IMG/VR virus record: IMGVR_UViG_3300042465_007045
Span: 1-44,428 of that record
Direction: 5' to 3' (one strand)
Length of the DNA stretch: 44,428 nt
From: a virus
Part shown: in pieces, positions 5,137 to 40,398 of the stretch
How the letters are laid out: each line of letters begins with the position of its first letter
How positions within the stretch are numbered: position 1 is the stretch's first letter
Translations under genes and position numbers: made by a program
Notes under the pieces: generated by a model
Databases searched by the model: none
Told to the model about the DNA's origin: nothing
What the model saw: the letters and a program-made list of their open reading frames with translations, nothing else

Positions 5137-5141
5137 TTTGA

Positions 5142-15763: not shown

Positions 15764-18121
15764 TTGTCAGATAGTCCATTATACATAAGCGCAGGTAATA
15801 GTAGTGGTCAGTCAATGAAAGATTTTCAGCTGACTACAGACCTTGCATCCAAATCTGATATTCTATACGGTAAAAGAGTTGCTCAGAACATATATTCAAC
15901 TATTTACGGTAATCAGTCATATTTTTGGATTAGAAATAATCGTTTTAGAAAAAATAGGCAAATTGCAAATGGAAAAATAGACATGAGTGTCTTTTTAGAT
16001 CGTCTTGAATTAAATGGCAAGAATAATTATGTTAATATTAATTGGAAATCAATTATTATTGGTAATACAATTGTAGCAAGATTAGTTGGTTCTTGGATGA
16101 ATAGAAAAGAAAAATTATCTGTTACAGCAGTAGATCCTACATCTGCTAAATTAAAAAAAGAAGCGGCAGATGAAGCCGAGTTTGTTTATGATAATAAAGA
16201 AATGTTATCTCAGTTGGAATTAGAATCTGGAGTTCCAATGATTCCTAAAGATCAATTTGTTGCAGAAGATAAAGATGATTTAGATAGATGGGTTTCTGAA
16301 TTCAATCACTTACCGGAAGAAATAAAATACAGCATGGGCTGTAACAATGTTTTACAGGCTAATGGATGGGATGATATTTTAAAAGAAAGAATATTACACG
16401 ATTCGGCAGAGGTCGGATTAGTTGCAACTTATACTTGGATGGATGAAGAAGGTGAAATTCATGTTCAATGGCTTAGACCAGAGAATGTTATTTATTCTTA
16501 TTCAGATTATCCTGATTTTAGAGATACAACATACAGAGGACATATATCTTCAATAAAGATTAGCGAATTAAGAGCTAAATATGGTAAACAGGCTGGTGGT
16601 ATTTTGACAGAAGAGGAGATTTTTAGAATTGCACAATTTTCGAAAGAATATCAATTGACTGATAAGATTAAATGGATGCAAGACTGGAATATTGCATATT
16701 TGCGTCCTTATGATGAATGGAATATTGATTTAATGAATTTTGAAATTAAAACATTAGATTCTGATGGATACACAGTTACAAAAACTAAAAAGAACGGAAG
16801 CACTATCATTAGAAAGGGCAAGCCAGAAAAATTAGACGAGAATCAGGAATATTTAGAAGAAAAAAAATGGAATATATATAGAGGCGTTTATTGTCCAGTT
16901 ACTCAAGATATGTTGAGTTGGGGAATAAAAAAGAATATGATTCGCCCTCAAGATCCAAAGGAATTAGGTAATGCAGAATTTTCTTACAGTTTTTATATGT
17001 ATCAGAATTATGATATGCGTAACGTGGCTGTGCCTGAAAAAATTGAAGAACCTATTGAGCAAATGATTTTGGCGAGATTAAAGATTCAACAACTAGTTGC
17101 TAAAATGAAACCAGCTGGTGCTTCTATTAATGTAGATGCATTACAAGAGCTAGATTTAGGACTAGGAGATACTACTAAGCCTATTGAAATACAAAAGATA
17201 TGGGAACAAACAGGTAATTTATATTACAGAGGCAGAGATGCTGAAGGAAATCAAATACCTATTCCTATTAACGAATTACCTAATACAGGATTTGCACCTC
17301 AATTACAGGCTTTAATACAATTATATCAATTCCATTACCAAGTTTTAAAAGATGAATTAGGTGAAGATCCTAATTTAATGAGTCAAGCTGCAATGCCAAG
17401 AGTTGCTGCATCTAACATAGAAACATCAAGAATATTGGCCAATAATGCAACAGACTACATGTATGAGGCTTATAAGTATGTAATGGAAGAAACTGGTAAG
17501 AAAATAGCTTGTTTATTAAATACAAGTGTTACAAGAGGCGGTAAAAAATATAGAGATATTTTAAAAGAAGAAGAAGTAAAAGATAGAAATTTCGTAGCTA
17601 GAGTAGACATGCTTCCAGATGATTTAGAAGTAGCTAAATTAGAGGCTATGATGAATAATGCAATTACGGCCAATCCTCAAATGATTCTTTATATAGATCC
17701 ATTTAAGATAACAAGAATGGCTAGAGAAAATGTTCAATTAGCTGAATTGTATTTTAGACAGGCTCAGAAGAAATTTATAAAAGCAGAACAAGAAAAAGCC
17801 GCAACAAATAGTCAGCAAAATGCTGAAATACAACAAGCTAGTATGCAAGCTAAAGCTCAGGGAGATAATGCATTATTAGATAAGCAGACTAATGCTAAAC
17901 AAAAAGAAATCTTACTTCAGGGCGTGATAGATTTAGTTAAAGCGAACATACCAATGCCTGCACAATTACAACCATTAATTAATGAGTTATTAGTAAATGT
18001 AGAAATACCATTGACTGCTCAAAATGATCAAATGGAACAAGCGGCAGCTATGGTACAACAACAGCAACAACAACAAGAGCAACAAACACAAGGTCAGGAA
18101 ATGGCCTTAGAACAACAATAA
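15764..18121 (+). CDS. Portal protein
   Basis: The 785-residue protein has the size and sequence style of crAss-like portals. After a short N-terminus come FWIRNNRFRKNRQIANGKID and a segment with NINWKSIIIGNTIVARLVGSWMNRKEK, then a long alpha/beta middle. The start is TTG 15764, right after an in-frame stop; the next Met is residue 18, so either could be used. The C-terminus is Gln-rich (about residues 763-785, seven Q in a row), encoded mostly by CAA. The portal dodecamer at one vertex passes DNA and binds the neck proteins. It follows terL and precedes the head genes. Confidence 0.88.
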   Translation: MSDSPLYISAGNSSGQSMKDFQLTTDLASKSDILYGKRVAQNIYSTIYGNQSYFWIRNNRFRKNRQIANGKIDMSVFLDRLELNGKNNYVNINWKSIIIGNTIVARLVGSWMNRKEKLSVTAVDPTSAKLKKEAADEAEFVYDNKEMLSQLELESGVPMIPKDQFVAEDKDDLDRWVSEFNHLPEEIKYSMGCNNVLQANGWDDILKERILHDSAEVGLVATYTWMDEEGEIHVQWLRPENVIYSYSDYPDFRDTTYRGHISSIKISELRAKYGKQAGGILTEEEIFRIAQFSKEYQLTDKIKWMQDWNIAYLRPYDEWNIDLMNFEIKTLDSDGYTVTKTKKNGSTIIRKGKPEKLDENQEYLEEKKWNIYRGVYCPVTQDMLSWGIKKNMIRPQDPKELGNAEFSYSFYMYQNYDMRNVAVPEKIEEPIEQMILARLKIQQLVAKMKPAGASINVDALQELDLGLGDTTKPIEIQKIWEQTGNLYYRGRDAEGNQIPIPINELPNTGFAPQLQALIQLYQFHYQVLKDELGEDPNLMSQAAMPRVAASNIETSRILANNATDYMYEAYKYVMEETGKKIACLLNTSVTRGGKKYRDILKEEEVKDRNFVARVDMLPDDLEVAKLEAMMNNAITANPQMILYIDPFKITRMARENVQLAELYFRQAQKKFIKAEQEKAATNSQQNAEIQQASMQAKAQGDNALLDKQTNAKQKEILLQGVIDLVKANIPMPAQLQPLINELLVNVEIPLTAQNDQMEQAAAMVQQQQQQQEQQTQGQEMALEQQ

Positions 18122-20194: not shown

Positions 20195-21604
20195 ATGGCA
20201 GGAATACCTACCTCTAATATTCTGCAACCGGGTGCAATTTCGCAACCGTCCCAGAACAGGCAACTTATGGTTGACCTACAATTATTAACTCCTCAGTATT
20301 ACAAAAAGTATACAGAGAAGTACGGAAATGAAGATTTTACATGGTGGTTAGCCGCTCATAGTGGAATGGAAGAAGTAAAAAATCAGAATTTTTTCTGGTT
20401 TGAGAACAGAGGTAAATTAATGCCTGCTGTTACTAATGAATCTACAGTAGCTGCTGGCGTTGGTGCAACTGTTACCTTAACTTTAGGTGCAGAAGCTTAT
20501 TACAACAGTGGTACTGAAACTCCATTAAGAGTTAAAGAAACATTACGTGTCGCTTCATCTAACATTGAGGGTGTTATTTTGTCTATTGACGATACAACTC
20601 CTTATGCTTGGACTTTTGAAGTAGCTCCTAAGATCGTAACTCAAAGGTTTGCTTCAGCTGGTGCAAATAGCTTATTAGCTGGTGAAGTTTTATTATTCGG
20701 TGGTGATGTGGATGCTGGTGAAGCTTCTACTGCTATCAATCCTTTAATCCATTTGGATCAAAGATATGATAACAACATTACTGAAATTCGTGATGGTTGG
20801 AGCAATACCGATCTAGCTCAAATGGCTGATACTTATTATGAGTTCCCTGTTTCTGCCGATATGGCTGCTAATGGTGTTACTGCATTTACTTACAAAGGAA
20901 TGTACAAAACATTACAACGATTCAAGAATAACGTAGAGGCTAAGTTAATGCGTGGTAACAAGCAGAATAACACAGCTATCTCTAACTCAGTAGGAGCTCA
21001 AGGTATTATCCCTAAGGCTTTAGCTGATGGAGAAACTGTAGGTTATACTCCAGGTACTTTAGATATCGCTAAATTACATGAGATCACTCGTATTATGGAT
21101 GTTAACGGTTGTGCTAAGCAATCTGCTTGGTTAACTGACATTTTCCAAAGACAAGATTTCAGTGATGGTATCTTTGCTGCTTACCCAGCTGGTGCTTTCG
21201 TTTATGGATCTGGTGAAAAAACTAAAGAAGCTTCTGTTGCTTATGGTTTCCAAGAGATCTATATTGACGGTTATTTGTTATCTGTTAAGAAGTATCCTCA
21301 ATTTAACTCTGAGGTTACAACTGGTTTAACTCCAAATGTTGATTACTTCCGTAATTTCGGATTAATCTATCCAATGGGTGAAACTAAAGATAGCAAAACT
21401 GCTCAAACATACAAGAACATCACAGTTATGTACCAAGAGCCGCCTAAAGGTGGAACAGTTGGTAACGGAATTCGTGTATGGCAGTATGGTGGTGGTTCTC
21501 CTAATCCTACAGATGGTACAATGACTAATCAAATCGCGATGATCACTTACAGATCAACTCGTGTTTGTGCAGCAAACCAATTCATCGTAGTTCAAGGTGA
21601 CTAG
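20195..21604 (+). CDS. Major capsid protein
   Basis: The 469-residue protein matches the crAss-like major capsid type: an N-terminal arm (GIPTSNILQPG, QPSQNRQLMVDLQLLTPQYY), FTWWLAAHSGMEEVKNQNFF, a beta-rich body, and FKNNVEAKLMRGNKQNNTAI in the central segment. It forms the HK97-fold icosahedral shell. Base use differs from its neighbours: many GGT, GCT, AAC, TTC and ATC codons, as in strongly expressed genes. It ends with TAG and is followed by a strong terminator, so it is probably the most abundant product. Confidence 0.9.
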   Translation: MAGIPTSNILQPGAISQPSQNRQLMVDLQLLTPQYYKKYTEKYGNEDFTWWLAAHSGMEEVKNQNFFWFENRGKLMPAVTNESTVAAGVGATVTLTLGAEAYYNSGTETPLRVKETLRVASSNIEGVILSIDDTTPYAWTFEVAPKIVTQRFASAGANSLLAGEVLLFGGDVDAGEASTAINPLIHLDQRYDNNITEIRDGWSNTDLAQMADTYYEFPVSADMAANGVTAFTYKGMYKTLQRFKNNVEAKLMRGNKQNNTAISNSVGAQGIIPKALADGETVGYTPGTLDIAKLHEITRIMDVNGCAKQSAWLTDIFQRQDFSDGIFAAYPAGAFVYGSGEKTKEASVAYGFQEIYIDGYLLSVKKYPQFNSEVTTGLTPNVDYFRNFGLIYPMGETKDSKTAQTYKNITVMYQEPPKGGTVGNGIRVWQYGGGSPNPTDGTMTNQIAMITYRSTRVCAANQFIVVQGD

Positions 21605-24001: not shown

Positions 24002-24274
24002 ATGAAACCATTAAGAGATTTTGTTTTAATTAAGCCTATGATGGCAGAAAGTGTTACTGAATCAGGATTATTTATACCTGAATCAGCTCAAGAAAGAAGT
24101 GCAAAGGCTGAAATTGTTGAAGTTGGAAGAGGCACAAGTAAGATAAAAATGGAAGCAAAAAAAGGCGACATAGTATTTCATATAAAAGATGCAGGAGACG
24201 CTTACATTATAAACGATATTGTTTATTATTTAATACGTCAAAACGATATATTAGCTTACGTTTCAAATAATTAA
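24002..24274 (+). CDS. GroES-type co-chaperonin
   Basis: The 90-residue protein is a chaperonin-10. KPLRDFVLIKPMMAESVTES starts the barrel, and a mobile-loop-like stretch with GLFIPESAQERSAKAEI carries a hydrophobic LFI where cellular GroES has IVL. The end has GDIVFHIKDAGDAYIINDIV and DILAYV. Phage GroES proteins (such as T4 gp31) replace the host cap so that GroEL can fold the capsid protein. No GroEL is encoded, so it must use the host one. The gene lies in the neck gene cluster. Confidence 0.93.
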   Translation: MKPLRDFVLIKPMMAESVTESGLFIPESAQERSAKAEIVEVGRGTSKIKMEAKKGDIVFHIKDAGDAYIINDIVYYLIRQNDILAYVSNN

Positions 24275-25057: not shown

Positions 25058-28000
25058 ATGCCAATAATAAATAACCCATTTAACGGAAAGCTTAACTTAG
25101 ATGTTGCCGACTATAGGATATCTGGTGGTGATTATATAGATGCTTTAAATATAACAAAAGATTCTGAAGGAACAGGTCAGGATATAGTTATATCTAATAT
25201 ATTAGGAAATTCATTATTGCCATATACGTTGCCTGCCGGTGAAAATAAAATTATTGGATTTTATCCAGACAAAATAAGAAATAAAGCTTATTATTTTTTG
25301 TGGAATAGCAATGGTTATAATACTATATTGTATTATGATGCGAATAACGAAACTGTTGTAAAAGTATTAGAAAGCAAAACAGACAGCGACGGTATTGATA
25401 TTTTGAATTTTAATCCATCTTATAAGGTTTTATCGGTTAATATATTTTATAGAGATGATGAAGGTGATATTTTATTTTTTAATGATGGATTAAATCCACC
25501 TAAAAATATTAATGTAATTGCTACATATAGTCCATGGAAATTAGAATATTTATTGGTTGCAAAAGCGCCACCGGTAATGTCTCCTAAAGTAGTTTATGAA
25601 AATGATACTACAATTACTATTAATAACCTTAGAAATAAATTATTCCAATTTTCATATAGATATGTTTATGATAACAATGAAAAATCTGTATGGAGTTCAA
25701 AGAGTATAGTGCCTTTGCCACAACAGCCAACATTAAGTTTAACGGATAATGTATTTACAGACAACTCTAGAATTTCTGTTTCTGTTTCTACAGGCGGAGA
25801 TCAAGTAAAAGCTATTGAAATTTCTTTTAGAGAAACGAGTAATGGAGTTACTAGCAACTGGTATCTTATCCAATCTTTTATTAAGGAAAATTTATTTATA
25901 TCAAATAATACTTTATACACATATAAGTTCTTTAATGATGGTATTTATTCTCAATTAGATGTAATTGAAGCTACGCAGTTGCAAGATTGGGTTCCTCAAA
26001 AAGCGAATGCATCTGAATTAGCTAATGGAAATGTTTTATTATATTCTGGAATTACAGAAGGGTATGATAAGACAGATATGGAATTATCTATTTCTCAGCC
26101 AATTGGGCAAACTGATTATTTTTATGATCAATGTGGATTGCTTTTTATTGCATCAGTAAATGGTTCAGATCATGGCTCAGGCACAATAATGGATATTTAT
26201 CTTTATGGTACTGGTACAAATGGAATAGATGGAACAGTAACAACACTAAATAACGCAGCAGGTGGATATTATATAAATTCATTCTCATCAACAGGTACTG
26301 ATTTAAGTACATTCTATGAAACTACTGGTTTAACAAGCTCGTATTTAGTTAGCGATTTATTGGACGGAATATCATCTGCAATGCAGTTAAAAGGTTTTAC
26401 GCAAGTATCATTAACCGGCAATCATCTTGTTTTAAATTACGCAAGCGGATTTACGTTATTTTCAAATGGATTTAAAACATTTCCTGCATTAGATTCTGAT
26501 AATACAAGATTTGCAAATGCATGGGATTCTGGTTATCAATATGCTATTCAATACTTTGATGAACAAGGGAGAACTATAGGTGCTCAAACATCGATAAATG
26601 CAACAGCAAATACTTCTTCTCAATCTTTAGTAGATGAATTGCCATTGATATATATATCTATATTAAATAGGCCTCCATTGTATGCAAAATATTATCAAAT
26701 ATTAAGATCAAATAATACTACTTATAATAAAAGATTATATTGGATAAGTGATTCTGCATTTTCTAGCTTAAATGCAACAGATGAACCTAGATATATTTAT
26801 ATAGGAATAAATAATATTCAATCTTATAATGAATCAATAAGTTCTACTCAAAATGTAGTTTCTTATTCTTTTGCAGATGGAGATAGAATTAAATTTTTAA
26901 GAAGATATGATGTAGATAATGTTGCAATACCATTGACTCAATATGATTATGAAATTGTAGGGGTGCAAACGTCTATACAATATAATATAGAATTTCCTGC
27001 TCCATTAACTCCAAACTATAATACTTATACAAGAACAGGAACTTTTTTAAAAATAAAATACCCGACAAATGATATAGGTGATGATTTTAAATTTATAGGT
27101 ACGGAAGATTTTCAGCATTATGAAATATTATTATATAACCTTACTACAAATTCATCTTTAACTCAAAGATTTTTTTATGAATTTGGCAAATGTTATGGAA
27201 TAGGAAATGCAGGAACTAATTTAGATTTTCATTATGGAGAAATAACGCAAAGTGCTACAGATCCTTATAATTATCCTGCTATTGTTTCTTTAATGAATGG
27301 AGATTTATTTTATAGGAAAAGAACAGTTCCTTATAATGATTTTTATGAATCAATACAGTCTAATTTAGTTGAAATAGAAACATCTGCGCCATTTGATAAT
27401 AGAATACAAACATTGAGTCTTACCGTTGATCCTGAAATATCAAATGATTCATATGAATTAAAAACACAACCAATGAATTTTGTTGAATTTGCGGTTGGGT
27501 ATTATCCTGAATTTTCGGATATAGGTTATTTTTTTTATAATAAATCAGCTAATTCCAGAATTGTTAGTTTGAAAGGAACAGTACCTGTTTTTTCTGATGG
27601 AACATCTAAATTTTCTATGTATGCAATTGTATGTAATGCATCTGCAAATCCTAAATATAAAATTAACTTATTACCTATAGAAATTAACACTATAGTTCAA
27701 TTTGCTGCAGGAGGCGTAAATGTAGAATATGAATTAGATAAAAAAATAACCATACCAGCAAATTCAAAAGTTTGGATAGTTGCTGAATCTACAAATGATT
27801 CTATTGGAACAAATCGTATTTTTATAAATCCTTTTTCTCTTGATTTTGCAGTAATAAAAAATTCTACAATATCAATAATAGAATCAAGTTTTAGTGATAA
27901 TTACAATTTAATTACAAATAGTAATGGTAGAGAATCAGTTGTAGATGAAAATGCAAAACAAGTTTATTTTCCAACTTTAATAAGATTTGGTCAAGCATAT

Positions 28001-29023
28001 CAATCAAATACAAATATAAATAATATTAATAGATTTTATTTTGAAAATTTTGACGAATATGATAGAAGTTTTGGTGATGTTATGAGATTACATGTAAGGG
28101 ATAGGTATTTAAAGGTTTATCAAAAATTTAAAGTGGGGAATGTGCCTATTTTGACTCAGATTGTAAAAGACGTTACAGGGAATCCATTGCAAGCAAATAG
28201 TGATCAGCTAATTAACAAAATTCAATATTATGCAGGTGATTATGGCATAGGTGACGCTTCGACAAGTCTTGCATGGAATAATTTTGCAGATTATTTTGTA
28301 GATAATTATAGAGGAGTAGTATGTAGATTAAGTCAAGATGGTATAACTCCAATAAGTATAACAAATCAAATGAATTCATTTTTTGTTAAAAACTTGGCCG
28401 CTTATAGACAAGAATTAAATAATGGTGCTACATTGAATGATACTGTTTATAAGGGTAATCCTTGTATTTATGGTGTATTTGATGCTTATACAAATAAGTA
28501 TATTATAGCTATGGAAGAAATTAATAGATATACTGTTCCTACTACAACTACGACTACTACAACTACTACAACTACTACTACAATTGCTCCAACTACGACT
28601 ACTACGACTACAATTGCTCCAACTACGACTACTACGACTACAGCTGGCCCTACAACTACTACAACAACAGTTGCACCAGTATCAATAAGTTGGTATGTAG
28701 GTAATCAATCTGGAGGAAACTTGAAAGTTTTGAGTAATACAGGAGGCACTTTACTTGATATTACATCTTCAATAAGTGGTATTCAAAGTGGGTTTTTAAG
28801 TGTTTATTCTTATCAACAGCCATATACAATTAGAGGAAGCTGGGTATCAGGAAGCGGAAATGTAATTAAATATAGAGTTTGCGAAGGAATAAGTGAATTA
28901 TATCTTAGTCCAGATATAACAGCAGCTAGTTCTATAGATGAATTTATTCCTATGCCGGTGCCATTAAGTATATCAGTTGCATTAACGGCTCAAAGTGTAT
29001 CACCTCCTTCTTGTGCTCCATAA
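25058..29023 (+). CDS. Large tail hub/stabilisation-like protein with Thr-rich C-terminus
   Basis: This 1321-residue protein begins PFNGKLNLDVADYRISGGDY, a start shared by tail stabilisation (P22 gp10-like) proteins of crAss-like phages. The body is beta-rich, as in propeller- or hub-like proteins, for about 1150 residues. At about residues 1160-1207 there is a poly-Thr linker broken by IAP, AGP and VAP. A final 110-residue beta domain follows (VSISWYVGNQSGGNLKVLSN, ending VSPPSCAP), probably Ig-like. The Thr linker would hold that domain off the tail. The function is inferred from position, size and N-terminus. Confidence 0.72.
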   Translation: MPIINNPFNGKLNLDVADYRISGGDYIDALNITKDSEGTGQDIVISNILGNSLLPYTLPAGENKIIGFYPDKIRNKAYYFLWNSNGYNTILYYDANNETVVKVLESKTDSDGIDILNFNPSYKVLSVNIFYRDDEGDILFFNDGLNPPKNINVIATYSPWKLEYLLVAKAPPVMSPKVVYENDTTITINNLRNKLFQFSYRYVYDNNEKSVWSSKSIVPLPQQPTLSLTDNVFTDNSRISVSVSTGGDQVKAIEISFRETSNGVTSNWYLIQSFIKENLFISNNTLYTYKFFNDGIYSQLDVIEATQLQDWVPQKANASELANGNVLLYSGITEGYDKTDMELSISQPIGQTDYFYDQCGLLFIASVNGSDHGSGTIMDIYLYGTGTNGIDGTVTTLNNAAGGYYINSFSSTGTDLSTFYETTGLTSSYLVSDLLDGISSAMQLKGFTQVSLTGNHLVLNYASGFTLFSNGFKTFPALDSDNTRFANAWDSGYQYAIQYFDEQGRTIGAQTSINATANTSSQSLVDELPLIYISILNRPPLYAKYYQILRSNNTTYNKRLYWISDSAFSSLNATDEPRYIYIGINNIQSYNESISSTQNVVSYSFADGDRIKFLRRYDVDNVAIPLTQYDYEIVGVQTSIQYNIEFPAPLTPNYNTYTRTGTFLKIKYPTNDIGDDFKFIGTEDFQHYEILLYNLTTNSSLTQRFFYEFGKCYGIGNAGTNLDFHYGEITQSATDPYNYPAIVSLMNGDLFYRKRTVPYNDFYESIQSNLVEIETSAPFDNRIQTLSLTVDPEISNDSYELKTQPMNFVEFAVGYYPEFSDIGYFFYNKSANSRIVSLKGTVPVFSDGTSKFSMYAIVCNASANPKYKINLLPIEINTIVQFAAGGVNVEYELDKKITIPANSKVWIVAESTNDSIGTNRIFINPFSLDFAVIKNSTISIIESSFSDNYNLITNSNGRESVVDENAKQVYFPTLIRFGQAYQSNTNINNINRFYFENFDEYDRSFGDVMRLHVRDRYLKVYQKFKVGNVPILTQIVKDVTGNPLQANSDQLINKIQYYAGDYGIGDASTSLAWNNFADYFVDNYRGVVCRLSQDGITPISITNQMNSFFVKNLAAYRQELNNGATLNDTVYKGNPCIYGVFDAYTNKYIIAMEEINRYTVPTTTTTTTTTTTTTTIAPTTTTTTTIAPTTTTTTTAGPTTTTTTVAPVSISWYVGNQSGGNLKVLSNTGGTLLDITSSISGIQSGFLSVYSYQQPYTIRGSWVSGSGNVIKYRVCEGISELYLSPDITAASSIDEFIPMPVPLSISVALTAQSVSPPSCAP
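28538..28678 (+). repeat. Threonine-codon (ACN) tandem repeat
   Basis: ACT/ACA/ACG runs are interrupted by ATTGCTCCA, GCTGGCCCT and GTTGCACCA. The unit ACTACGACTACTACGACTAC recurs three times, and the array resembles that at 18824-18954. Confidence 0.85.
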
Positions 29024-29584: not shown

Positions 29585-30078
29585 TGATTTTAAGGGAAAA
29601 TGATGACATACTGGACGAATTAGAGGTTTCTATGTTAGAGAACCTTCAGCCAGTTTATTGTCTTACCACCCATAAGTTTACAGAAGGGATGTATATAAGA
29701 GAGATATTTATGCCTGCTGGATCTTTGATAACAAGTAAAATACATAAAACAGAACATCCATATGTAATATCGTATGGTAAAACAGCTGTTTCTATAGATG
29801 GTGATGAATGGAATGAAATAACGGCTCCTTATACTGGAATAACAGTTCCAGGAACAAGAAGAGTTTTATATATACTAGAAGATTGTATTTGGACAACATT
29901 TCATAAAATAGATGGAATGACTTCTGAATATAATAAATTAAGTGATGAAGAAAAAGAAGAAATAGTGAAAAAAATTGAAGAAAAAATATTAGAACCACAT
30001 TTAAATTATTTGACAGGAACTGATATCAAAGATGAATATATTAAAAAATTAGAAGAAACTAAAAAAATAGAATTATGA
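29584..30078 (+). CDS. Cupin-fold protein in tail cluster
   Basis: The 164-residue protein has a cupin-like barrel in residues 20-110: YIREIFMPAGSLITSKIHKT, EHPYVISYGKTAVSIDGD, then YTGITVPGTRRVLYILEDCI. H54, H58 and H107, with E57, are possible metal ligands. The C-terminal 50 residues are a Lys/Glu-rich helix that may mediate assembly. Related small cupins occur next to tail genes in other phages, possibly as assembly factors. It overlaps the next gene by 4 bases, so it is coupled to the ejection-protein genes. Confidence 0.78.
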   Translation: MILRENDDILDELEVSMLENLQPVYCLTTHKFTEGMYIREIFMPAGSLITSKIHKTEHPYVISYGKTAVSIDGDEWNEITAPYTGITVPGTRRVLYILEDCIWTTFHKIDGMTSEYNKLSDEEKEEIVKKIEEKILEPHLNYLTGTDIKDEYIKKLEETKKIEL

Positions 30079-30830
30079 GTTTCATAGCAATAGGAACAGC
30101 TTTAGGAGCAACAGCAGCAACAGCAGCAGTTACCGGAATAGCAGCAGTCGGTACCGCAGCCACCGTAGGTATGGGGGCGGCTGGTATGATCTCAGGAAGC
30201 AAACAGCAAAAAAGAGCACAGCAAGCACTAGAGCAGCAAGCTAGGAATAGTCCTTTATACAAGCCTAGTAAAGAAATAGGAGATTATTATCAAGAAGCTT
30301 TAAATAGATATAAGGAAAGCCCTTATCAATCACAGCAATATCTTGTAGGAAAACAAAATATCCAAAGAGCTACTGCTCAAGGGTTATCTGCATTGCAAGA
30401 TAGAAGATCTGCTATTGGTGGTATCTCCAGATTAGCAGGGGCTCAGTCACAGGCATTAACAAATTTAGGAGCTCAAGCAGAATCTCAAAAAGGACAAAGA
30501 TTATCACAATTAGGTCAAGCTACTCAAATGATGAGTGGAGAAAGTGCAAAAGAATTTGATATTAATAAGATGACTCCTTACAATAGAAGACTTCAATTAG
30601 AACAAATGAAAGCACAGGCAGCAGGAGAGCAATATAATGCAGGAATGCAAATGCTAGGGTCTGGATTAAGTAATGCTGCCTCATTGGGTGTTTCTAGTGC
30701 ATTTAATTCTCCCACTAATGTTAATGCAGTTCCGTCAATAAGTGGTTTTGATTCAAAAGTGCCTGGTGACCCATATGGTAAATTTAAAGTTAATACCAAT
30801 TTTAATCAATACTGGAAACCAACAAAATAA
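30075..30830 (+). CDS. Internal virion (ejection) protein, small
   Basis: The 251-residue protein has an Ala/Gly-rich hydrophobic N-terminus (residues 3-40, TALGATAATAAVTGIAAVG), followed by a Gln-rich helical body (KQQKRAQQALEQQARNSPLY and LERQ/LGQA-type repeats). This is the pattern of small podovirus ejection proteins (compare P22 gp7/gp20, T7 gp14), which enter the cell envelope and help form the DNA channel. It is the first of three internal protein genes in a row. Confidence 0.72.
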   Translation: MSFIAIGTALGATAATAAVTGIAAVGTAATVGMGAAGMISGSKQQKRAQQALEQQARNSPLYKPSKEIGDYYQEALNRYKESPYQSQQYLVGKQNIQRATAQGLSALQDRRSAIGGISRLAGAQSQALTNLGAQAESQKGQRLSQLGQATQMMSGESAKEFDINKMTPYNRRLQLEQMKAQAAGEQYNAGMQMLGSGLSNAASLGVSSAFNSPTNVNAVPSISGFDSKVPGDPYGKFKVNTNFNQYWKPTK

Positions 30831-30839
30831 AATATTAAA

Positions 30840-32189
30840 ATGGCTTCAACAGGATTATTGGGAATAAATCCCTACAAAAGGGGAGTTGCGATAGATATAT
30901 CATCTAAGCCAACTCAGATGCTTATTCAATTGCAGCAAAAAGAACAAGCTAAAAACGAAGCATTGGACAAGTACTTCATGGATTATGATAAAAACATAAC
31001 TCCAGCTGGTATGCGTAATCAAGATATCGAGGGCTTGATGAGAAGAAAAAATGAAGCTAAGCAGTATTACTTTCAAAATAAAGAAGCAATAAGAAGACCA
31101 GAATTAGATAATGGTAAAGCTTATTCTCAGTTTATGGGAATGAATACAGACCAATTGGGTTATGTAACCAAATCCAAGGAGCAAACAGGTAAGGCAAAAG
31201 CACTTTCAACAGCAATGATGGATGCTCAAAAAAGAAAAGAAATTGCAGAAGATGGTGTAGCTCAGGGAATAGCTTTAAATGAATTGGCACTAGATGATCC
31301 AAAAAGAGTAGATTTTGACATAGCTAATTTTAGGACATACTCGCAACACGATCCTATTAAATATCAACAAGATATTTATGGAAGATTAAGACCAGATCTT
31401 GAAACAGAAAAAGAAGTATTTAATAAAGCAACAGGTAAATATGAATTAATAAAAACAAAGGATATTACCAAGAATGCGTTAAATAGAATAACAACAGATG
31501 TTTATGGTACTTATGATAGAGATAGAGGATTACAAGTTGCCGTAAGGGATATCGCTTCTGATATTAATAAAGTAAATGAATTAGCTTCTATATATAAGGA
31601 TTTTACAGGCAAAGATATGCCTAGAACAGAAAAAGATATTGCAGTTGCTTATACTATTGCAATGAAACCAGCGGCAGAAGTAAGTACAGAAATAAGTGAT
31701 TGGAGAGATAGGCAGAATAGACAAGACGCATTAGCTAGAAGTAGGGCTGATTTAAAAGCGCAGAATATGCCTAAAATGAAGAATTTATTTGATATGACAG
31801 GTTCTGGCGGAGTTCCGGTAAAATTAGGAAGCACAGGATATGAAATTGTAGCTGGAAAGGTATTAGATAAAGAAGGGAAACCTGCTACCATTAATTTAAA
31901 AGATGTTTCAGGATCAAATTTTCAACCTGAATTTTATAGTGCTTTAGAAAACTACGGAATAGACTTGAGGTCAAGGGATAAATATAAATTAGTTGCTAAA
32001 GACGGTATAATACAAAGTATTACTAGTCCTAAAAATAAAGTAATAACTAGAACTACAATTATGAATGCTCAAAAGAAATTTGATACAGAAAGAAAGGGAG
32101 AATCTCCATTATATTCATATGAAGAAGAAGTTGAAGATGTGGTAACTCCGGGAGGCGTTGATTTGAATAAATTTTTAAAAAAGCAATAA
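30840..32189 (+). CDS. Internal virion/ejection protein
   Basis: The 449-residue protein is helical and charged (LQQKEQAKNEALDKYFMDYD, then IEGLMRRKNEAKQYYFQNKE), with no enzymatic motif. The C-terminal half is more mixed (SGGVPVKLGSTGYEIVAGKV). The position between two ejection proteins and the long helices suggest an internal head protein. The start is ATG 30840, 9 bases after the previous stop; the next gene follows after 3 bases. Confidence 0.68.
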   Translation: MASTGLLGINPYKRGVAIDISSKPTQMLIQLQQKEQAKNEALDKYFMDYDKNITPAGMRNQDIEGLMRRKNEAKQYYFQNKEAIRRPELDNGKAYSQFMGMNTDQLGYVTKSKEQTGKAKALSTAMMDAQKRKEIAEDGVAQGIALNELALDDPKRVDFDIANFRTYSQHDPIKYQQDIYGRLRPDLETEKEVFNKATGKYELIKTKDITKNALNRITTDVYGTYDRDRGLQVAVRDIASDINKVNELASIYKDFTGKDMPRTEKDIAVAYTIAMKPAAEVSTEISDWRDRQNRQDALARSRADLKAQNMPKMKNLFDMTGSGGVPVKLGSTGYEIVAGKVLDKEGKPATINLKDVSGSNFQPEFYSALENYGIDLRSRDKYKLVAKDGIIQSITSPKNKVITRTTIMNAQKKFDTERKGESPLYSYEEEVEDVVTPGGVDLNKFLKKQ

Positions 32190-32192
32190 TTT

Positions 32193-35100
32193 ATGCCAGA
32201 TATAGATTTTGATTTAGTAGGAGCTAGAAAAGCAGGGGCAAAGCCTTCTGAATTGTCAAGTTACTTTAAAAGTAAATTTAATTTAGATTTTGATTTTGAT
32301 GGAGCTTATAAATCAGGCGCATCTGACAATGATGTATTATCTTTTTTGAATCAAAGTTATGCAGATTTAAAAAAAAAAGGAGTTTCTGGAACAGAATATG
32401 GCCCTATACCATCAAAATTACCATCAAAAAACGTTCTTGAGCAGGGGGCTGAATTTGCTCAGAAAGGTTTTACTATACCTCAAGCTAAAGTAGAAAGACC
32501 TACAGAAATTATTGTAGAAAAACCTACAGCGGAGCCTGTAGAAAAACAAGGCTGGTTATTAAATACTGTATCTGCATTAGACAAAGGATTTGCAAAAGGA
32601 TTTATTAGTAGTCCTACTAAAGCTCTAGGTACAGCTCTTCAAGGGGCAACCAAAAAAGTTATGGGTGGTTCTGGGAAAGGTTTTGCAAGTGATGCATTAA
32701 TTAAATTTGGCGATTATTTAAACAATGCAATAGACGAATTAACTCCTCAAGACGAGGAGTTTAAAGGTACATTATCAGATCAAGTTGCTCAAGCTTTTGG
32801 ACAAGTAGGTTCTTTGGTGCTTACGGGCGGCCTTACGGGCGCGGCAGGAAAGGGTGCCGCATTAGTTGCTCAAGCTCCTAAAGGAGCAGTTATAACAGCA
32901 GCTAAAACGCTTGGTTCACAATTAGCTACGCCTACGGCTGTAAGTGCCGGACTTTCTATGGGGCAATCTGAATTTGATAGAGCCAAGGATGCAGGGGCTA
33001 CTGATGACCAAGCATTTGAGGCTTTTTATAAAAATGCAGCAGTAGGATCAGTATTAGAAACGATTCCTGTAATGCAATTTTTCAAAAGATTTAATAATTC
33101 AACAGGAGGAAGTGTAGCTAATTACATTAAAACAAAAGGTGTAGCTGGTCTTACAGGTGGTATTGAAGAAATGACCACAGAAGTAATGCAGCAGTTGTAT
33201 GCTAATAAAACAGCAAAAGACATATATAACATCAATCAGTCTATCATGGATGGGGTAGGCACATCTGGTGGAATTGGATTTGGCGTTGGCTTTTTACTTA
33301 ACGCTATGGGTGCTAATGCTAAGATTTTAAGAAAACAAGGTAAGCAACAAGAAGCGGATGTTTTAGAGAATCAAATTAAGCAATATGAAGATAATTTAGA
33401 AAACCCTAAAATAACTTCTGGTAATGAAGTATCTGCTAAAGATATTGTTACACAAGGAGTTGAGGTGGGTACTCAAAAGGCGGTTCAAAATTTAGACAGA
33501 GATTTAGCTAATAATGTTATTACTCCAGAACAATATCAAGAAGGCATTGCTTTTACAGAAAAGGCAGCACAGGTAGTAGATAAAATACCTCAAACAGTAA
33601 CAGGCGAAAGCAAGGTTAAATCAATTGAGCTATTGGTTGAAAGAAATGACATAAACCAAGCTAATCAAAATCTATTACAGCAAAAACAAGCAACAGATGT
33701 AGCTTATCATGCAGGTATAGATCAAGAAATAAAAAACAACGAAGAAAGAATTAAAAAAATAGATGCAGAAGTATATAATATTGCAAAGAAGCCATCAAAA
33801 GAATTTGGTGGTAAAAAATACATAGTAGATGGAGAGGAAGTAAGTCAACAAGAATTTGAAGCGTTGCAACCTAAGCCTACCGAAGTTGAAGTAACTGAAG
33901 AAGTAATCAAGCCAACTGAAGTAATCAAGCCAACTGCTCCAACTTTAGAAGAAGAATATAATAGTAAAAGTGTAGATGAATTAATTGCATTAAAAAAGAA
34001 ATTATATCCAAGTCCAGATATTGAAACTCCAATGACTAAGGAGGAAAAGCTTTTAGACAGAGTAATTTCTAAAAAGTTTAGCGATAAGCAACAAGAAATT
34101 ATAGAAAAAAGGAAAATAGCAGAAGAAGCTCCTCGTTTTCCGTCTTATGATGATGCTCAAGAATGGATAAAATCAAAATCAAAAGAATATAAGAGCAAAA
34201 ATGAGTTTTTGGCGTCACAAGAATATAAAGATGCGCTACCCGATATAAATGCTTTATTTAAGGTAGAAAAAGCTGATTACTCAAAGAAAGCAAAATCAGC
34301 AATGCAAGAATCAGGCGTTAAGATTGGAGATAGAGTTGTGTATGATTATGTAACGCCTATAGGTTTAAAAACTTATTCAGGTGAGATAGTAGATAGGCAA
34401 GGTGTCCCATTTGTTAGATTTGATAATGGTCAAAAAACAATAAGTGGTAAGCAAAGTGTTAGGTGGCATAAAGGCTTTATTAAAGAACCTGCGCCAGAGT
34501 CTGTTGTTGAACAAATTAAACCAACTGAAGTAGAAGCAGAGCCTAAAAAAACATATCAGGAAGTATTAAAAGAGAAGCAAGAAGCAGAAAAAAAGATAAA
34601 TAGAGAAATTGGAGCAGAAAAAGCAGTTGTTACGAAAGAATTGTATCGAAAAGTAAAAGAAATGCCAGCACCAGCTGGATCTGGTGAAATCGGTGCAGCA
34701 GAGGTTGCATTGAGATATTTAGCAGATGGAGGCAAGGTTAGTGAAGAAGCTGTAAATGATGCATATGGAAGTGTAAAAGGAGCAGAATTGAATGTGCCTC
34801 GTAGAAAAAAAATATCTGAAGAAGTTAAGTTGAAAGATTTTGTAGGTGGCAATGAAACTTTAAACGATTTGGCACATAGGTTATGGGAGGTAAATAAGCA
34901 AAGAATTTCAGAAAGGGATATTAAAGATAAATTAATAGCTGAAATTGGCAATAATAATACCAGAATAGAAGCAGCCGAGGCCTATTTAGAGCAATATAGC
35001 CCAGAATATATGGCGGAAAAGCAAGCAATGAGAATTGCAGAGCAATATGAAGCCGAATTTTTAGAAGAACAAGAGAAGTTAGAAAAACAATTAAGAGAGC

Positions 35101-35381
35101 CACTTGACGAACAGATTGAAGGAGAAGACTCGGAAGATCATATAAACAATTTAATTAAACAATATGAAGCAGAAATTAAAGCAGAAGATCAACAACTTAG
35201 ACCCAAGGGTGAGGGAGAAATTGATAAAGAGGCTGGCGGCAGATCAAGTGCAAAGGAAATTACTAAAGAAACCTTAGTACAAGATTATAAAGATCTTACC
35301 AGAATTGAGAAAAGAAAGATAATTAATAGTAAATTTGATGAATTACTCAAAGAACTTAAAATAGAAAAAATATGTCCATAA
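32193..35381 (+). CDS. Large internal virion (ejection) protein
   Basis: The 1062-residue protein starts with two short repeated segments (GARKAGAKPSELSSYFKSKF and GAYKSGASDNDVLSFLNQSY). It then has Gly/Ala-rich hydrophobic stretches at about residues 205-260 and 350-370 (for example GIGFGVGFLLNAMGAN) that could insert in a membrane, and a long charged helical tail. An SH3-like segment (KIGDRVVYDYVTPIGLKTYS) lies near residue 710. This fits the second or third ejection protein of a podovirus-like phage. Its last 10 bases overlap the ferritin start, so the two are translationally coupled. Confidence 0.68.
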   Translation: MPDIDFDLVGARKAGAKPSELSSYFKSKFNLDFDFDGAYKSGASDNDVLSFLNQSYADLKKKGVSGTEYGPIPSKLPSKNVLEQGAEFAQKGFTIPQAKVERPTEIIVEKPTAEPVEKQGWLLNTVSALDKGFAKGFISSPTKALGTALQGATKKVMGGSGKGFASDALIKFGDYLNNAIDELTPQDEEFKGTLSDQVAQAFGQVGSLVLTGGLTGAAGKGAALVAQAPKGAVITAAKTLGSQLATPTAVSAGLSMGQSEFDRAKDAGATDDQAFEAFYKNAAVGSVLETIPVMQFFKRFNNSTGGSVANYIKTKGVAGLTGGIEEMTTEVMQQLYANKTAKDIYNINQSIMDGVGTSGGIGFGVGFLLNAMGANAKILRKQGKQQEADVLENQIKQYEDNLENPKITSGNEVSAKDIVTQGVEVGTQKAVQNLDRDLANNVITPEQYQEGIAFTEKAAQVVDKIPQTVTGESKVKSIELLVERNDINQANQNLLQQKQATDVAYHAGIDQEIKNNEERIKKIDAEVYNIAKKPSKEFGGKKYIVDGEEVSQQEFEALQPKPTEVEVTEEVIKPTEVIKPTAPTLEEEYNSKSVDELIALKKKLYPSPDIETPMTKEEKLLDRVISKKFSDKQQEIIEKRKIAEEAPRFPSYDDAQEWIKSKSKEYKSKNEFLASQEYKDALPDINALFKVEKADYSKKAKSAMQESGVKIGDRVVYDYVTPIGLKTYSGEIVDRQGVPFVRFDNGQKTISGKQSVRWHKGFIKEPAPESVVEQIKPTEVEAEPKKTYQEVLKEKQEAEKKINREIGAEKAVVTKELYRKVKEMPAPAGSGEIGAAEVALRYLADGGKVSEEAVNDAYGSVKGAELNVPRRKKISEEVKLKDFVGGNETLNDLAHRLWEVNKQRISERDIKDKLIAEIGNNNTRIEAAEAYLEQYSPEYMAEKQAMRIAEQYEAEFLEEQEKLEKQLREPLDEQIEGEDSEDHINNLIKQYEAEIKAEDQQLRPKGEGEIDKEAGGRSSAKEITKETLVQDYKDLTRIEKRKIINSKFDELLKELKIEKICP

Positions 35382-35866
35382 AGTCATTACTTAGCCCAAG
35401 CATGAAAAAGGGCCTACAAAGTGCTCTTCAAGTTGAGCTATACCAATCAAATCTATGGAAAAGCCTAGCTAATCAATTGCAAAGAATTGGTTATTTTGGT
35501 GGTCAAAAGTACTTTTTAGCAGAAAGTGCAGAAGAATTAGGCCATTATCAGATTATAGTAGATTTCATGAATGATATGGGAGATTGCGCAGATGTGCCTA
35601 AAATAGAAGCAATTACTGATAAAGTAAGTGATTTAGGGGAAGCATTGGAATTAGGTTATCAAACAGAATTAGATGTATATAACCAATACAAGGAATTGTA
35701 TGAAAAAGCAGAAGATGAAGATTGCACAGTTGGTATATTTTTACAACAATTTGTAACAATACAAGTAAAAGCAGTTGGTCATTATGGTGATTTATTAGCT
35801 AAATACAAAATTGCAGAAGCAACTAAAGAGTTACTAGAATTTGACCAACACATCAATGATTTATAA
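35372..35866 (+). CDS. Ferritin-like iron-storage protein
   Basis: This 164-residue four-helix protein aligns well with bacterial ferritin. QVELYQSNLW supplies E22 (E. coli E17). AESAEELGHYQIIVDFMNDM supplies E54, E55 and H58 (E49, E50, H53), followed by DVPKI like the FtnA loop. YQTELDVYNQ supplies E99 (E94) and FVTIQVKAVG supplies Q131 (Q127). So ligands of iron sites A and B are kept, while the site-C residues E126, E129 and E130 are I, K and A here, and Tyr24 is Trp29. Ferroxidase activity is plausible but unproven. The gene is embedded between two ejection-protein genes and overlaps the first by 10 bases. Confidence 0.88.
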   Translation: MSIKSLLSPSMKKGLQSALQVELYQSNLWKSLANQLQRIGYFGGQKYFLAESAEELGHYQIIVDFMNDMGDCADVPKIEAITDKVSDLGEALELGYQTELDVYNQYKELYEKAEDEDCTVGIFLQQFVTIQVKAVGHYGDLLAKYKIAEATKELLEFDQHINDL

Positions 35867-35868: not shown

Positions 35869-38800
35869 ATGGCAAAAAATCCATGCAAATATCTTTTTGA
35901 AATAAGTAAAGGTGAATTTAAAGAATTTACTGAAGCGGAACTTAAAGATTACCTCGTAGAACAAGATTTATCAAAGTTAAAACCTATACAAGATGCCATA
36001 CAAGAGCGAGGCGCAGAGGAAATTCTTCAACGTGAACAAGCAGGAGCTAGAAAAGCAAGGGGTGGACGTGAAGGAGTGGAACCAAGCAAGCAAAGGGAAA
36101 AAACTTCCATTGAAGGTGAAGTCGATGAAAAAACTGAAAAAATAAGGTCTGTATATAGACAGCTTATAAATAGATCTACAGAATTAACAGAAGATCAGAA
36201 GTCTATATTAGAAAATGATCCTAATGCAATTTATACAGTAATGCCACCTGCACAAGCTAGGGAATTTGCATTGGATTTAATTAAGCAAGTAGGAGTAGAA
36301 AATGCAGTATTAGAAGCAACAAAGTCTAATTTAGAGCCAGTTGAGAGAGTTATGATATTAGGCGCTGCTATGGATTATTATGCAAAATTAGGTAGGCAAC
36401 AATTCGCAGAGGGTAAATCTACAACCGAGTCGGTAAATGACGAAATCGATGCAAATGAAAAATTAAAAGAAGTAACAGCTGAATTAGGTAAATTAGGAAC
36501 TGCTTATGGTAGAGCTATAAACATTCACAAGGAAATATATAAACTTTCTGGACTGGCGCTTATTAAGAAATTGCAAAATACAGTAGAGGAATTAAATGAA
36601 GTAAGAGCAAAAGATGCTACCGATCAAGCAAAGGTTATTATTAAAATAATAAAAGAAGAAGCTCAGTCTATTGATCAAGCTGCAAAAGAATTAACAGAGT
36701 CTGATTTAGAGGGAGAGTCTAGTGTAAATAAAAATATTTCTCAATTAGAGAAAGAGATAATAAATTTAAAAAAGCAAATAGCCGAGAGAGATAATGCTGC
36801 AAAGGGGACTAAAAAGAATCCATTATCTATAAAAAGAATCACAAATGACACAGAATACGATAGGAGGTTAAAAGACTTTAATCAAAGAGCAAGAAGTATT
36901 GCATCTAAGGATGATTTAGTAGATCTTACTTATTTTGGATTATATCATATAGAAAATGGATTAACAAATTTTGCAGATTGGTATAAGGTCATGTCTTCTA
37001 AGTTTAAAGGATTCAAAAAAGAACTTAAGGGAATATATAATGGCGTTAAAGACAAGGCTGTGCAAAATGGAGCAGATGAAAAATTATTTGATAGCGAAGA
37101 AAAAGTGCAGTCTTATTTAGATGGATTACAAGATGAAAGTGATGCAAAGAAAATGCTTCAAGCCACAAAGAAGTCGGCTATAGCTAAGTTGAAAAAAGAA
37201 GAAGATAACAATCCCGAGAAAGCTAGAAAAATAGCTCCTAGGATGGCAGCTGAAAGAATAAGGAAAGATGCAGAAAGTAATTTAGGAATGGCATCTACCA
37301 AAGAAGAGCAAACATATCTTAAAAAACTTGTAAAAGTAGTGTCAAATAAGGCTAAAGAATATTATGCAAGCAAAAAAGAAAATGTTAGTAATGTAAACGA
37401 TATGCTTTCTTTTGCTATAGCAAATGGTAAAAAGGATTTTGCTATATGGGAAAACACAAAAGAAGAATTAGACGTTTTAATAGATGAAGATGAGAATCTT
37501 ACAGATGATCAAAAAGAAGATATAAAAGATTTCTTAGCAGATTATACTGATAGTATATTTGAAACATTATTAACTAAAAATCAAATTAGCAATGCTATAA
37601 GAGAGAAGTTAATAAGTGCTGGTTATTTTACTGAAAAGGTTATTGATAATAAATCTGTAAAATCAGTTGATTGGTCTAAGGTTATAGGAAAAGCATCAAA
37701 TATATTAGACGCTAAGGAAAAGATTACAAAATCAATATTAGATTTAGGATTTACTCTTGAACAAGCTAAGCCTGAAATAAATGCTATATTAGATCAATTT
37801 GATTCTAAAGTTGCGGATATAAAGACAAAAGAAATAAATAGGTTTTTAAATAAGGGAGCTTTAAATAAAATAAAAACTGCTCTTGGTAAAAAAACTCCTG
37901 TTACAAAGGTGTCTAGGTTAATAGAGATGAACAACAAGGGGTTATTGACTAATGACAAAGTAAAAGATGCATTAGCGAAAGAACTTGGATTAGTAACATT
38001 GACTAATCAGGATATAGAAGCAATGCAAAACTTGTCTGATAAAATAGATGATCCGAATATACCGTTTTTCATGAAAAAGCAGGCAGAGGAGCAAATGCAA
38101 TATATTATGGATTTAAAGGGCGGTAATATAGATTATCTAGAAAATAGAGAAGCCATGATGGCTAATAGGCTTTCTAGTGTATACAATCAGATACAAAACT
38201 CTACTGGATTTTTTAGAACAATATCTACTTTAATTACAGTTGCTACAAAAACGGGCAAGCCATTTGAGGCGGCTAAGGTTTTTGGAAAAGAATTTATGAA
38301 CTCGCTAAACGATGCTAAAAGCATATTGTTAAGAGGTAGAGTTAGTAGAGGTAGTTCTTTTGCTGATTTAACTAGGGTTTCCGAAGGGGAAGCTAGAGTT
38401 AGATATTTGGAGCAAGGAATTGGTAAATTTATGGGAGGAAAAGCAATAGGCAAGCCTATGTATGTAGAAATAAAAGGCAAAAAGATGGATTTGAATCCTT
38501 TAAATGCAGCTTATTCTAAAGTAAAATATATTCAAAGATTATTAGAGGCTGTAGATACTCCAAGTTCTAATATAGTTTCTGGACTTACTCAGTTTTGGCA
38601 AATAAATAGAGAGATAAATAAATTTTATCCAGAATTAAGCGCTAAAGACAAGAGCCAGAAAGTTTATGATATAATGTATAGTCTAAATAGAGATGCAGAA
38701 GCAATAAAAGCTATTTCTGATTTAAAATCAGCTGGCGTTTCAGATCCAAAATCATACGAAATAAATAGAACTATAAACGAAAGGGTAGAAAGAGCTAGAA

Positions 38801-40398
38801 ATGAAGAATTATCAAAAGAGTTTTATAAAACATTAGATTCATTAAAGACAATTGCTGAAACTAAATTAAAAGCTGATGGGGTAAGCGATTATACCAATGA
38901 AGATATATTAAACGAAGCCTATAAAATGATAGGCGGAACCTCTCCATTAGACGTAGTTGCAAGAGGTGAAAGACAAGCTGGAAGGGAAACTGGCAAAACT
39001 ACAACAACTGGGTTAACTTCATTATTATTGCTTCCGGTTGATTTAATTCAAAAGGGTATAAGTGGATGGGTTAAGAAAAGTAAAACAAAAACAGGAGTGG
39101 CTTTGGCTAACACTTCAGATATGGTATTTTCTCAATTATTCCCATTTGCTCATTCTATAGGAAGATGGATAGAAATGCAGATAGAGCTTACTCCTTATGG
39201 AGCAATAAAAGGAATAGCTTATAAGGGATATGCAAAATTTGCAGAAGATGGTAAAACTGAAATATCCAACGATGAATATAATGAATTGGGGGACGATTAT
39301 ATTATTAGATCTGTTATAGGTGCTGGCTATACAACAGCAGGCATGTTTGTTATAGGAATGGCGAAATCCTTAGCTGGAGATGATGATGAAGCTGAAGACG
39401 CAATAGTAGGCACATCTGAAGCGGAAAAATTTACCCAAGAAAGAGTTAAAAGCGTAGGAAAGCCTAAGCAAACGGTAAAAATAGGAGGTTATAATATACC
39501 ATTACAATTAGCTGGAAACACTGGTATAGTGCTTGGTATGTATGCTGATTATGTTTCCATGAATAAAACTCCTGAAAATTCAGAAAAAGGACTACTTTAT
39601 ATTAGCTCAATAGTAGCAATGAACTCAGTAATAGATGCTACATGGTTTAGTAATGCATCTAAATACGGTAATTTGGCTTCATCAGTATTCAAGGGTAAAG
39701 AAGAGAAATTTGCACCCGGATTAGGCAGAATAGCTGGGGGAATATTAGGATCTCAAATACCATTTAATAGAGCTCAAGTTGAATTTGCTACTTTAATGAA
39801 TCCACAATCTCAGCAATCTGTTGATTTTGGAACTAACGTATTAAATCAAATGAGTATATTAAAGTCATTCCAAACAGGTAAACCAAGTTTTGATTATAGA
39901 GGAAGAACTTATGACTATGGAGATATATATGCAAATAGTGCTGATGGAGTGAAAAAGATGTTTAGTAAAGCAAAATATGGTGATGAAATAGATACTTTTT
40001 TAAGTAAAATTAATTTTGCAGCTACTGATGCATATAGAGAATCTAGAGAAGTTGATAATTATAAATTTTCTATATTAAACCAAGATGGTACTAAAAGATA
40101 TATGACAAATGATGAATATTATGAATTTAAGCGTATAACTGGAGTTACATTTAATGATTATTTAAAGGAAGATTATAAGGATATTAAGACAGAAGTTATA
40201 GAAGATGACCAAATGGCTACAAGTAACCTTCAAAAAGACATTATTTCTCAGATATTATCAGATTCAAAAGCAGAGGCATTTGTTAAAATACAGGAAGCAA
40301 CTGGATTTGATGATCCACAGTATTTGAAGCAATTAGCCAAAGAAAAGGCTAAAGATCAAAAGGCAATATCTAAGATTAAAAAATACTACAAAAAATAG
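35869..40398 (+). CDS. Very large internal virion (ejection) protein
   Basis: At 1509 residues this is the largest protein of the ejection cluster. Residues 1-800 are charged helices and coiled coil (KNISQLEKEIINLKKQIAER). The C-terminal 500 residues contain hydrophobic segments (TSLLLLPVDLIQKGISGW, VIGAGYTTAGMFVIGMAKSL, GLLYISSIVAMNS) that could span a membrane. No RNA polymerase, lysozyme or protease motif was found. The size and layout resemble the last ejection protein of short-tailed phages, which forms a channel through the envelope. It starts 2 bases after the ferritin stop. Confidence 0.7.
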   Translation: MAKNPCKYLFEISKGEFKEFTEAELKDYLVEQDLSKLKPIQDAIQERGAEEILQREQAGARKARGGREGVEPSKQREKTSIEGEVDEKTEKIRSVYRQLINRSTELTEDQKSILENDPNAIYTVMPPAQAREFALDLIKQVGVENAVLEATKSNLEPVERVMILGAAMDYYAKLGRQQFAEGKSTTESVNDEIDANEKLKEVTAELGKLGTAYGRAINIHKEIYKLSGLALIKKLQNTVEELNEVRAKDATDQAKVIIKIIKEEAQSIDQAAKELTESDLEGESSVNKNISQLEKEIINLKKQIAERDNAAKGTKKNPLSIKRITNDTEYDRRLKDFNQRARSIASKDDLVDLTYFGLYHIENGLTNFADWYKVMSSKFKGFKKELKGIYNGVKDKAVQNGADEKLFDSEEKVQSYLDGLQDESDAKKMLQATKKSAIAKLKKEEDNNPEKARKIAPRMAAERIRKDAESNLGMASTKEEQTYLKKLVKVVSNKAKEYYASKKENVSNVNDMLSFAIANGKKDFAIWENTKEELDVLIDEDENLTDDQKEDIKDFLADYTDSIFETLLTKNQISNAIREKLISAGYFTEKVIDNKSVKSVDWSKVIGKASNILDAKEKITKSILDLGFTLEQAKPEINAILDQFDSKVADIKTKEINRFLNKGALNKIKTALGKKTPVTKVSRLIEMNNKGLLTNDKVKDALAKELGLVTLTNQDIEAMQNLSDKIDDPNIPFFMKKQAEEQMQYIMDLKGGNIDYLENREAMMANRLSSVYNQIQNSTGFFRTISTLITVATKTGKPFEAAKVFGKEFMNSLNDAKSILLRGRVSRGSSFADLTRVSEGEARVRYLEQGIGKFMGGKAIGKPMYVEIKGKKMDLNPLNAAYSKVKYIQRLLEAVDTPSSNIVSGLTQFWQINREINKFYPELSAKDKSQKVYDIMYSLNRDAEAIKAISDLKSAGVSDPKSYEINRTINERVERARNEELSKEFYKTLDSLKTIAETKLKADGVSDYTNEDILNEAYKMIGGTSPLDVVARGERQAGRETGKTTTTGLTSLLLLPVDLIQKGISGWVKKSKTKTGVALANTSDMVFSQLFPFAHSIGRWIEMQIELTPYGAIKGIAYKGYAKFAEDGKTEISNDEYNELGDDYIIRSVIGAGYTTAGMFVIGMAKSLAGDDDEAEDAIVGTSEAEKFTQERVKSVGKPKQTVKIGGYNIPLQLAGNTGIVLGMYADYVSMNKTPENSEKGLLYISSIVAMNSVIDATWFSNASKYGNLASSVFKGKEEKFAPGLGRIAGGILGSQIPFNRAQVEFATLMNPQSQQSVDFGTNVLNQMSILKSFQTGKPSFDYRGRTYDYGDIYANSADGVKKMFSKAKYGDEIDTFLSKINFAATDAYRESREVDNYKFSILNQDGTKRYMTNDEYYEFKRITGVTFNDYLKEDYKDIKTEVIEDDQMATSNLQKDIISQILSDSKAEAFVKIQEATGFDDPQYLKQLAKEKAKDQKAISKIKKYYKK

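Follow-up and report, generated by a model that had tools for sequence, protein, structure and literature searches.

Why does a tailed phage carry a ferritin gene wedged between two giant genes, and where would the product act? The window analysed here is a 44.4-kb stretch (44,428 nucleotides) from an uncultured aquatic tailed phage, whose terminase, portal and 1,321-residue structural protein are distant kin (about 22–32%) of those of Cellulophaga phi38:1-type and Flavobacterium elemo podoviruses. Judged by the hosts of its relatives, the clade of the window probably infects freshwater bacteria of the Flavobacterium type. The genes that concern us lie on the plus strand: the terminase large subunit (13663–15702, phrog_6681), the portal protein (15764–18121, phrog_6547), a virion structural protein that is probably the major capsid protein (20195–21604, phrog_13704) and the 1,321-residue virion structural protein (25058–29023), homologous to phi38:1 gp097 and its elemo counterparts. 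There follow a 251-residue protein (30075–30830), a 449-residue protein of the same block that carries no functional name (30840–32189), an upstream giant of 1,062 residues (g1062, 32193–35381), the ferritin (164 residues, ATG start, 35372–35866) and a downstream giant of 1,509 residues (g1509, 35869–40398). The ORF coordinates confirm the tight packing noted in the preliminary description: the ferritin start overlaps the upstream giant by 10 bases, and the downstream giant begins 2 bases past the ferritin stop. The 251-residue protein, with a hydrophobic Ala/Gly-rich N terminus followed by coiled Gln/Ala-rich stretches, has no significant Pfam or PHROG family and is gp14-like by eye only; proteins that by eye resemble small podovirus internal virion proteins also stand upstream of the giants in loci L098, L125 and L138 (302–387 residues). 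Two further genes of the window encode GroES-like co-chaperonins: the first (12597–13295) precedes the terminase, as a GroES gene does in relatives of this phage group, and the second (24002–24274) lies within the virion block. The minus strand has a tRNA-Gln(TTG) gene (5140–5211).

The protein is a ferritin with an intact di-iron site

The product matches the Pfam Ferritin family PF00210 above its curated cut-off (E = 3.8e-16, 59.7 bits, cut-off 24.5), and its best sequence match among solved FtnA-type ferritins has E = 5.8e-9. The AlphaFold monomer (pLDDT 94, pTM 0.87) has five helices (9–39, 42–68, 88–116, 118–150 and 154–162), predicted to form a four-helix bundle with a retained short C-terminal helix E, and fold comparison gives TM 0.90–0.93 to the A. 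fulgidus, T. maritima and E. coli FtnA structures. For the ligands we aligned the protein with E. coli FtnA, whose di-iron ligands are E17, E50, H53, E94 and Q127; the matching residues are E22 (codon 35435–35437, plus strand, as are the others), E55 (35534–35536), H58 (35543–35545), E99 (35666–35668) and Q131 (35762–35764). E54 aligns with FtnA E49, and I130 and A134 replace E126 and E130, leaving E54 as the sole remnant of the third iron site C (E49, E126, E130) of bacterial FtnA. Site C is also absent in H-type ferritins; its loss is therefore a variant trait that excludes a bacterial FtnA with site C, not a ferritin as such. A bacterioferritin was rejected, the expected fifth and sixth ligands E127/H130 being replaced by Q131 and A134. 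Structure prediction of the ferritin alone, named beforehand as a check, thus finds the fold intact, and the earlier claims of preserved di-iron ligands and lost site-C acids both hold.

A phage family under strong purifying selection

Relatives were retrieved by protein similarity, blind to genomic context, from viral contigs (43% to 95% identity), the wider alignment round keeping the best 80 of 166 relatives; the set that we read comprises 135 sequences in 24 clusters at 80% identity. Not one of the 135 departs from the five di-iron ligands. At position 130 stands I, T, L, V or F and never an acid; 134 members have A or S at position 134, and the remaining one has a gap there. In 13 sampled pairs NG86 dN/dS is 0.008–0.10, and the gene is therefore under strong purifying selection. 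The family shares its fold, di-iron ligands and helix E with the bacterial and archaeal non-heme ferritins (FtnA, A. fulgidus, T. maritima); it differs from them in the lost site-C acids, in sequence (22–26% identity) and in its occurrence in these searches, which is almost only in phage-like contigs and inside virion blocks.

Two scans of 84,980 genomes, run with short peptide patterns that distant cellular kin could escape, returned one phage-like match, on a 5.4-kb contig of a Rhodoferax MAG, and two Prochlorococcus ferritins. The latter (L174 and L175, 30–31%) were set aside as apparently ordinary chromosomal ferritins in cellular surroundings. MT838721 was likewise dropped as a phage relative: it carries aldolase-like and phosphoglycerate-mutase-like genes and is most likely bacterial contamination. 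Staphylococcus records with 27–28% identity to the ferritin may be of the same kind. None of the cultured phage records searched carries the family.

The ferritin keeps to a few slots among virion genes

Context was read at the same 135 loci. At 85 of them, spread over many backbones, the gene lies between two giants, as in the window, with an upstream giant of up to 2,805 residues, a downstream giant of 542–2,054 residues and gaps of −16 to +12 bases. At 42 it lies directly behind a portal gene, counting two loci (L141 and L145) in which one 100-residue gene intervenes. These portal-slot phages use three unrelated portal families (phrog_6547, phrog_12082 and Phage_portal_2/phrog_21): 36 of the loci share one backbone, in which portal, ferritin and a gene of about 380 residues precede a probable capsid gene, and the six others (L102, L111, L141, L145, L162 and L164) have portals of two unrelated families. 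In L111 the gene after the ferritin matches a head scaffolding family. The remaining loci place the ferritin behind an unsplit giant (L014–L016), flanked by a co-chaperonin-like and a virion structural gene (L160, L161 and L163) or in another large-gene block (L092); at L113 the slot is not readable. The virion-morphogenesis block thus houses the gene wherever the slot can be read, at all loci but L113, and no lysis or fibre position is occupied in the loci read. As a separate observation, portal-slot phages carry, between terminase and portal genes, a cassette that includes a glycosyltransferase and a nucleotide-sugar epimerase (L013, 3253–7565).

The ferritin tree has the between-giants slot on each of its deep branches, and at least two changes are required to account for the portal slot. 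Ferritin genes have thus passed from one phage lineage to another and have again settled among virion genes. Locus L013 and the window, for instance, have ferritins that are 80% identical and portals that are 22% identical. The gene order in relatives, by which the preliminary description had proposed to check and possibly refute its link to ejection proteins, supports that link at 85 loci and departs from it at the 42 behind portals and 8 elsewhere; the refuting case that it foresaw thus holds in part, and a dedicated link is not universal. The ejection-gene link is real and widespread, but what holds in general is a place in the virion-morphogenesis block. The recurrence of the same ferritin in the same slots, in many phages that otherwise differ, suggests that some phages build a ferritin into their particles.

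A different reading, to which we give perhaps one chance in four, is that the ferritin acts in the infected cell: expressed late, it would sequester Fe2+ or consume peroxide during assembly, protecting DNA or starving host enzymes, and its block position would reflect nothing but late, strong expression. Late expression alone could indeed explain the position, the ferritin is intact, and relatives of the Dps type and catalases in gut phages are interpreted in this way (PMC8008677, PMC6669764). What this reading leaves unexplained is the use of two precise slots in unrelated phages, while other late positions (lysis, fibres) go unused in the loci read.

Matched tags on the giants that face the ferritin

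At the between-giants loci both neighbours present a conserved edge to the ferritin. The upstream giant ends in a tail of the form NF-DI--L-----I-C (in the window ...IINSKFDELLKELKIEKICP, 35307–35378, plus strand), which all upstream giants of this slot share; the downstream giant starts with a mini-domain of the form M(A)-C-Y-F----FK-YL--G (MAKNPCKYLFEISKGEFKEFTEAELKDYLVEQDL.., 35869–35976, plus strand), conserved directly behind the ferritin. Both tags were found at 77 loci and one tag at 8 whose other neighbour lies off the contig, accounting for all 85; at the 50 loci where the ferritin sits elsewhere, neither was found. The upstream giant on the Rhodoferax MAG contig also has the tail.

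Tag HMMs trained without the window's clade recover the giants of that clade, the window scoring E = 0.086 for the tail (model trained on other clusters) and E = 1.1e-5 for the mini-domain. In a background of 1,765 ORFs, no ORF that lacks a ferritin beside it reaches an E-value below 0.38 with these HMMs; five further matches first classed as non-adjacent do adjoin a ferritin that a text pattern had missed. An independent scan for the mini-domain found a ferritin directly upstream in 24 of 24 matches, three of them on new contigs (near relatives only). Where the genes overlap, the ferritin start codon in part dictates the cysteine of the tail, but this cysteine is also present without overlap (L098, L100 and L125). 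In L095 and L096, seeming internal repeats of the mini-domain proved to be a linker motif that the two share.

Tags on the flanking giants that occur only beside a ferritin are a second feature for which action confined to the infected cell offers no explanation. The tags and the slots at portal, scaffold and core genes would also suit a structural part, in which the ferritin fold is a symmetric scaffold for assembly, for example a 4-fold hub for core proteins, and iron chemistry is secondary. We regard this as improbable: the five di-iron ligands are strictly invariant in 135 members, which argues that metal chemistry is selected.

The flanking giants as candidate ejection proteins

The two giants of the window have no significant Pfam or PHROG match, no polyvalent effector or LPD domain by Pfam, no match among 50,697 phage records and no transmembrane segment by a simple hydropathy scan, and an AlphaFold model of g1062 residues 51–560 reaches pLDDT 48. 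In one portal-slot phage, G001, a single protein of 2,543 residues matches both, g1062 over its N-terminal part and g1509 over its C-terminal part (G001_028; upstream model E = 2.1e-7, downstream model E = 1.8e-51, hhalign 97–99%); they also correspond to halves of the 2,058–2,088-residue giants of L014–L016. The giants are modular and fast-evolving except at the two edges that face the ferritin: between the window and L001, the ferritins are 94.5% identical and the giants 36–45%, alignable over part only.

The N-terminal half of the upstream giant (window 32193–33872) exists in at least two very different allelic forms in phages with similar ferritins; comparison with L002, L030–L033, L055 and other class-A loci gives 62–80% against 12–20% identity. 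These forms suggest module swapping.

Relatives of the window giants carry recognizable domains. In L071, where each of the two giants hits a DarB-like PHROG, the upstream one has an InPase domain and the downstream one ART-PolyVal and LPD39; the downstream giant of L138 has ART-PolyVal and a RelA/SpoT-like region. The domains ART-PolyVal, InPase and LPD39 of the giants beside ferritins in L071 and L138 are shared with the polyvalent proteins that Iyer and colleagues inferred to be packaged and injected, in a paper that does not mention ferritin (PMC5512222). The position of the window giants is that of phi38:1 gp101, annotated as a structural protein; homology to gp101 or to the elemo 3,694-residue protein was sought by HMM and hhalign, and none was found. 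An ejection operon is therefore likely, judged from the polyvalent domains of relatives' giants, the window giants having no known domain. The name 'ejection proteins' in the preliminary description thus keeps the support of position and of relatives but is not provable by homology in the window; the window giants are likely ejection or polyvalent proteins (probable internal virion proteins) by position and relatives, not by direct homology.

The split of one giant into two halves bears on a further alternative, that the ferritin belongs to a selfish or moron-like cassette inserting at a giant-gene boundary, with the tags as coding edges of the cassette or as docks that rejoin the giant, and no bond to the ferritin. 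Besides the match of the window giants to two halves of one giant (G001_028, L014–L016), the mixing of slots on the ferritin tree, which implies exchange between lineages, fits such a cassette. Against it, the tags keep their protein sequence in phages whose giants have little else in common, strong purifying selection acts on the ferritin and no nuclease or recombinase lies beside its gene in the window; we hold this account to be very improbable.

A putative iron enzyme at the portal or core

On balance we lean towards a predicted catalytically competent ferritin that is made as a part of the virion and lies most probably inside the capsid, at the portal or internal-core end. The best reading of the protein is a putative virion-associated ferroxidase or iron sink at that site. 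The fuller proposal is about evenly poised: the phages would build a working ferritin into the capsid, hold it at the portal or core through a matched tag pair on two giant ejection proteins, and use it as an iron-oxidising cage that protects or conditions DNA in storage or at entry. The ferritin is encoded in the virion block, packed against its neighbours by overlaps or few-base gaps. Its subunits, probably assembled into a cage or dimers, would bind the tail of the first giant and the mini-domain of the second; where the giant is in one piece, the ferritin would be made beside portal and scaffold and enter the prohead there. In the particle or at entry it would oxidise Fe2+ with O2 or H2O2 and hold Fe3+, and packaged or entering DNA would thereby be spared Fenton cuts.

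The ferritin could be ejected or stay in the capsid. A ferritin cage measures about 12 nm, and a cage of this size is an unusual capsid cargo; because a whole cage cannot pass the tail tube, ejection would need dissociated or unfolded subunits. The ferritins of A. fulgidus and T. maritima dissociate into dimers at low salt, and by analogy such dissociation would solve the size problem. The tags, for their part, could be pieces that rejoin the halves of a split giant rather than ferritin holders.

Ferritin-superfamily proteins have precedents in phages. Gut phages encode Dps and Mn-catalase (PMC8008677) and Lactobacillus phages Dps (PMC6669764), each predicted to protect from reactive oxygen. 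These proteins belong to the same superfamily as the window ferritin and to a different subfamily; the Lactobacillus-phage gene lies near replication genes, unlike the window ferritin, and no ejection or portal link is described in the available text. The Vi01-like phage Sajous1 has a ferritin-like protein, gp217 (Phyre2, 22% identity to the template), in its virion proteome and beside a tail gene; it was read as tail-associated, and the phage is much larger than that of the window (PMC10892097). Among phage records searched by tblastn, gp217 gave no match to the window ferritin. The earlier idea of a new version of iron-receptor hijacking by phage tails finds no foothold here: no neighbouring evidence links the gene to tail fibres, and in the only published trial of such a mechanism in a phage, Sajous1 showed no TonB or FeoB dependence in the single host tested (PMC10892097).

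There is a conceptual likeness to encapsulin cargo, in which an iron-oxidising ferritin-fold protein is carried, possibly tag-bound, in an HK97-type shell. Ferritins of the encapsulated kind are short, have two helices and bring their own targeting peptide at the C terminus; the phage ferritin differs in being full length, with the tags on its neighbours. Among database models, three proteins of uncultured Caudovirales named prohead protease (BFVD A0A6J7WIS1, A0A6J7XDU5 and A0A6J7WPK9) have a ferritin/Dps-like fold (Foldseek E 0.002–0.011), a possible independent link between the ferritin fold and phage head assembly; the database models also include other phage ferritins, and Dps domains fused to proteins of that name.

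In the open-access literature that we searched, neither the tags nor a ferritin family with a fixed place behind portals or between ejection-type giants is described. Phage ferritin-superfamily proteins and a ferritin-like protein in a virion proteome were known; the family in these slots and its tags appear to be new. If the ferritin is in the particle, these phages would take their own redox or iron enzyme along from one cell to the next, the disputed part that iron plays in phage particles would gain a concrete, testable system, and the tags would serve as natural address labels for cargo to be loaded into phage cores. Should the ferritin act in the cell alone, the family would still be a widespread one in phages, unreported in the literature searched and strikingly fixed among virion genes.
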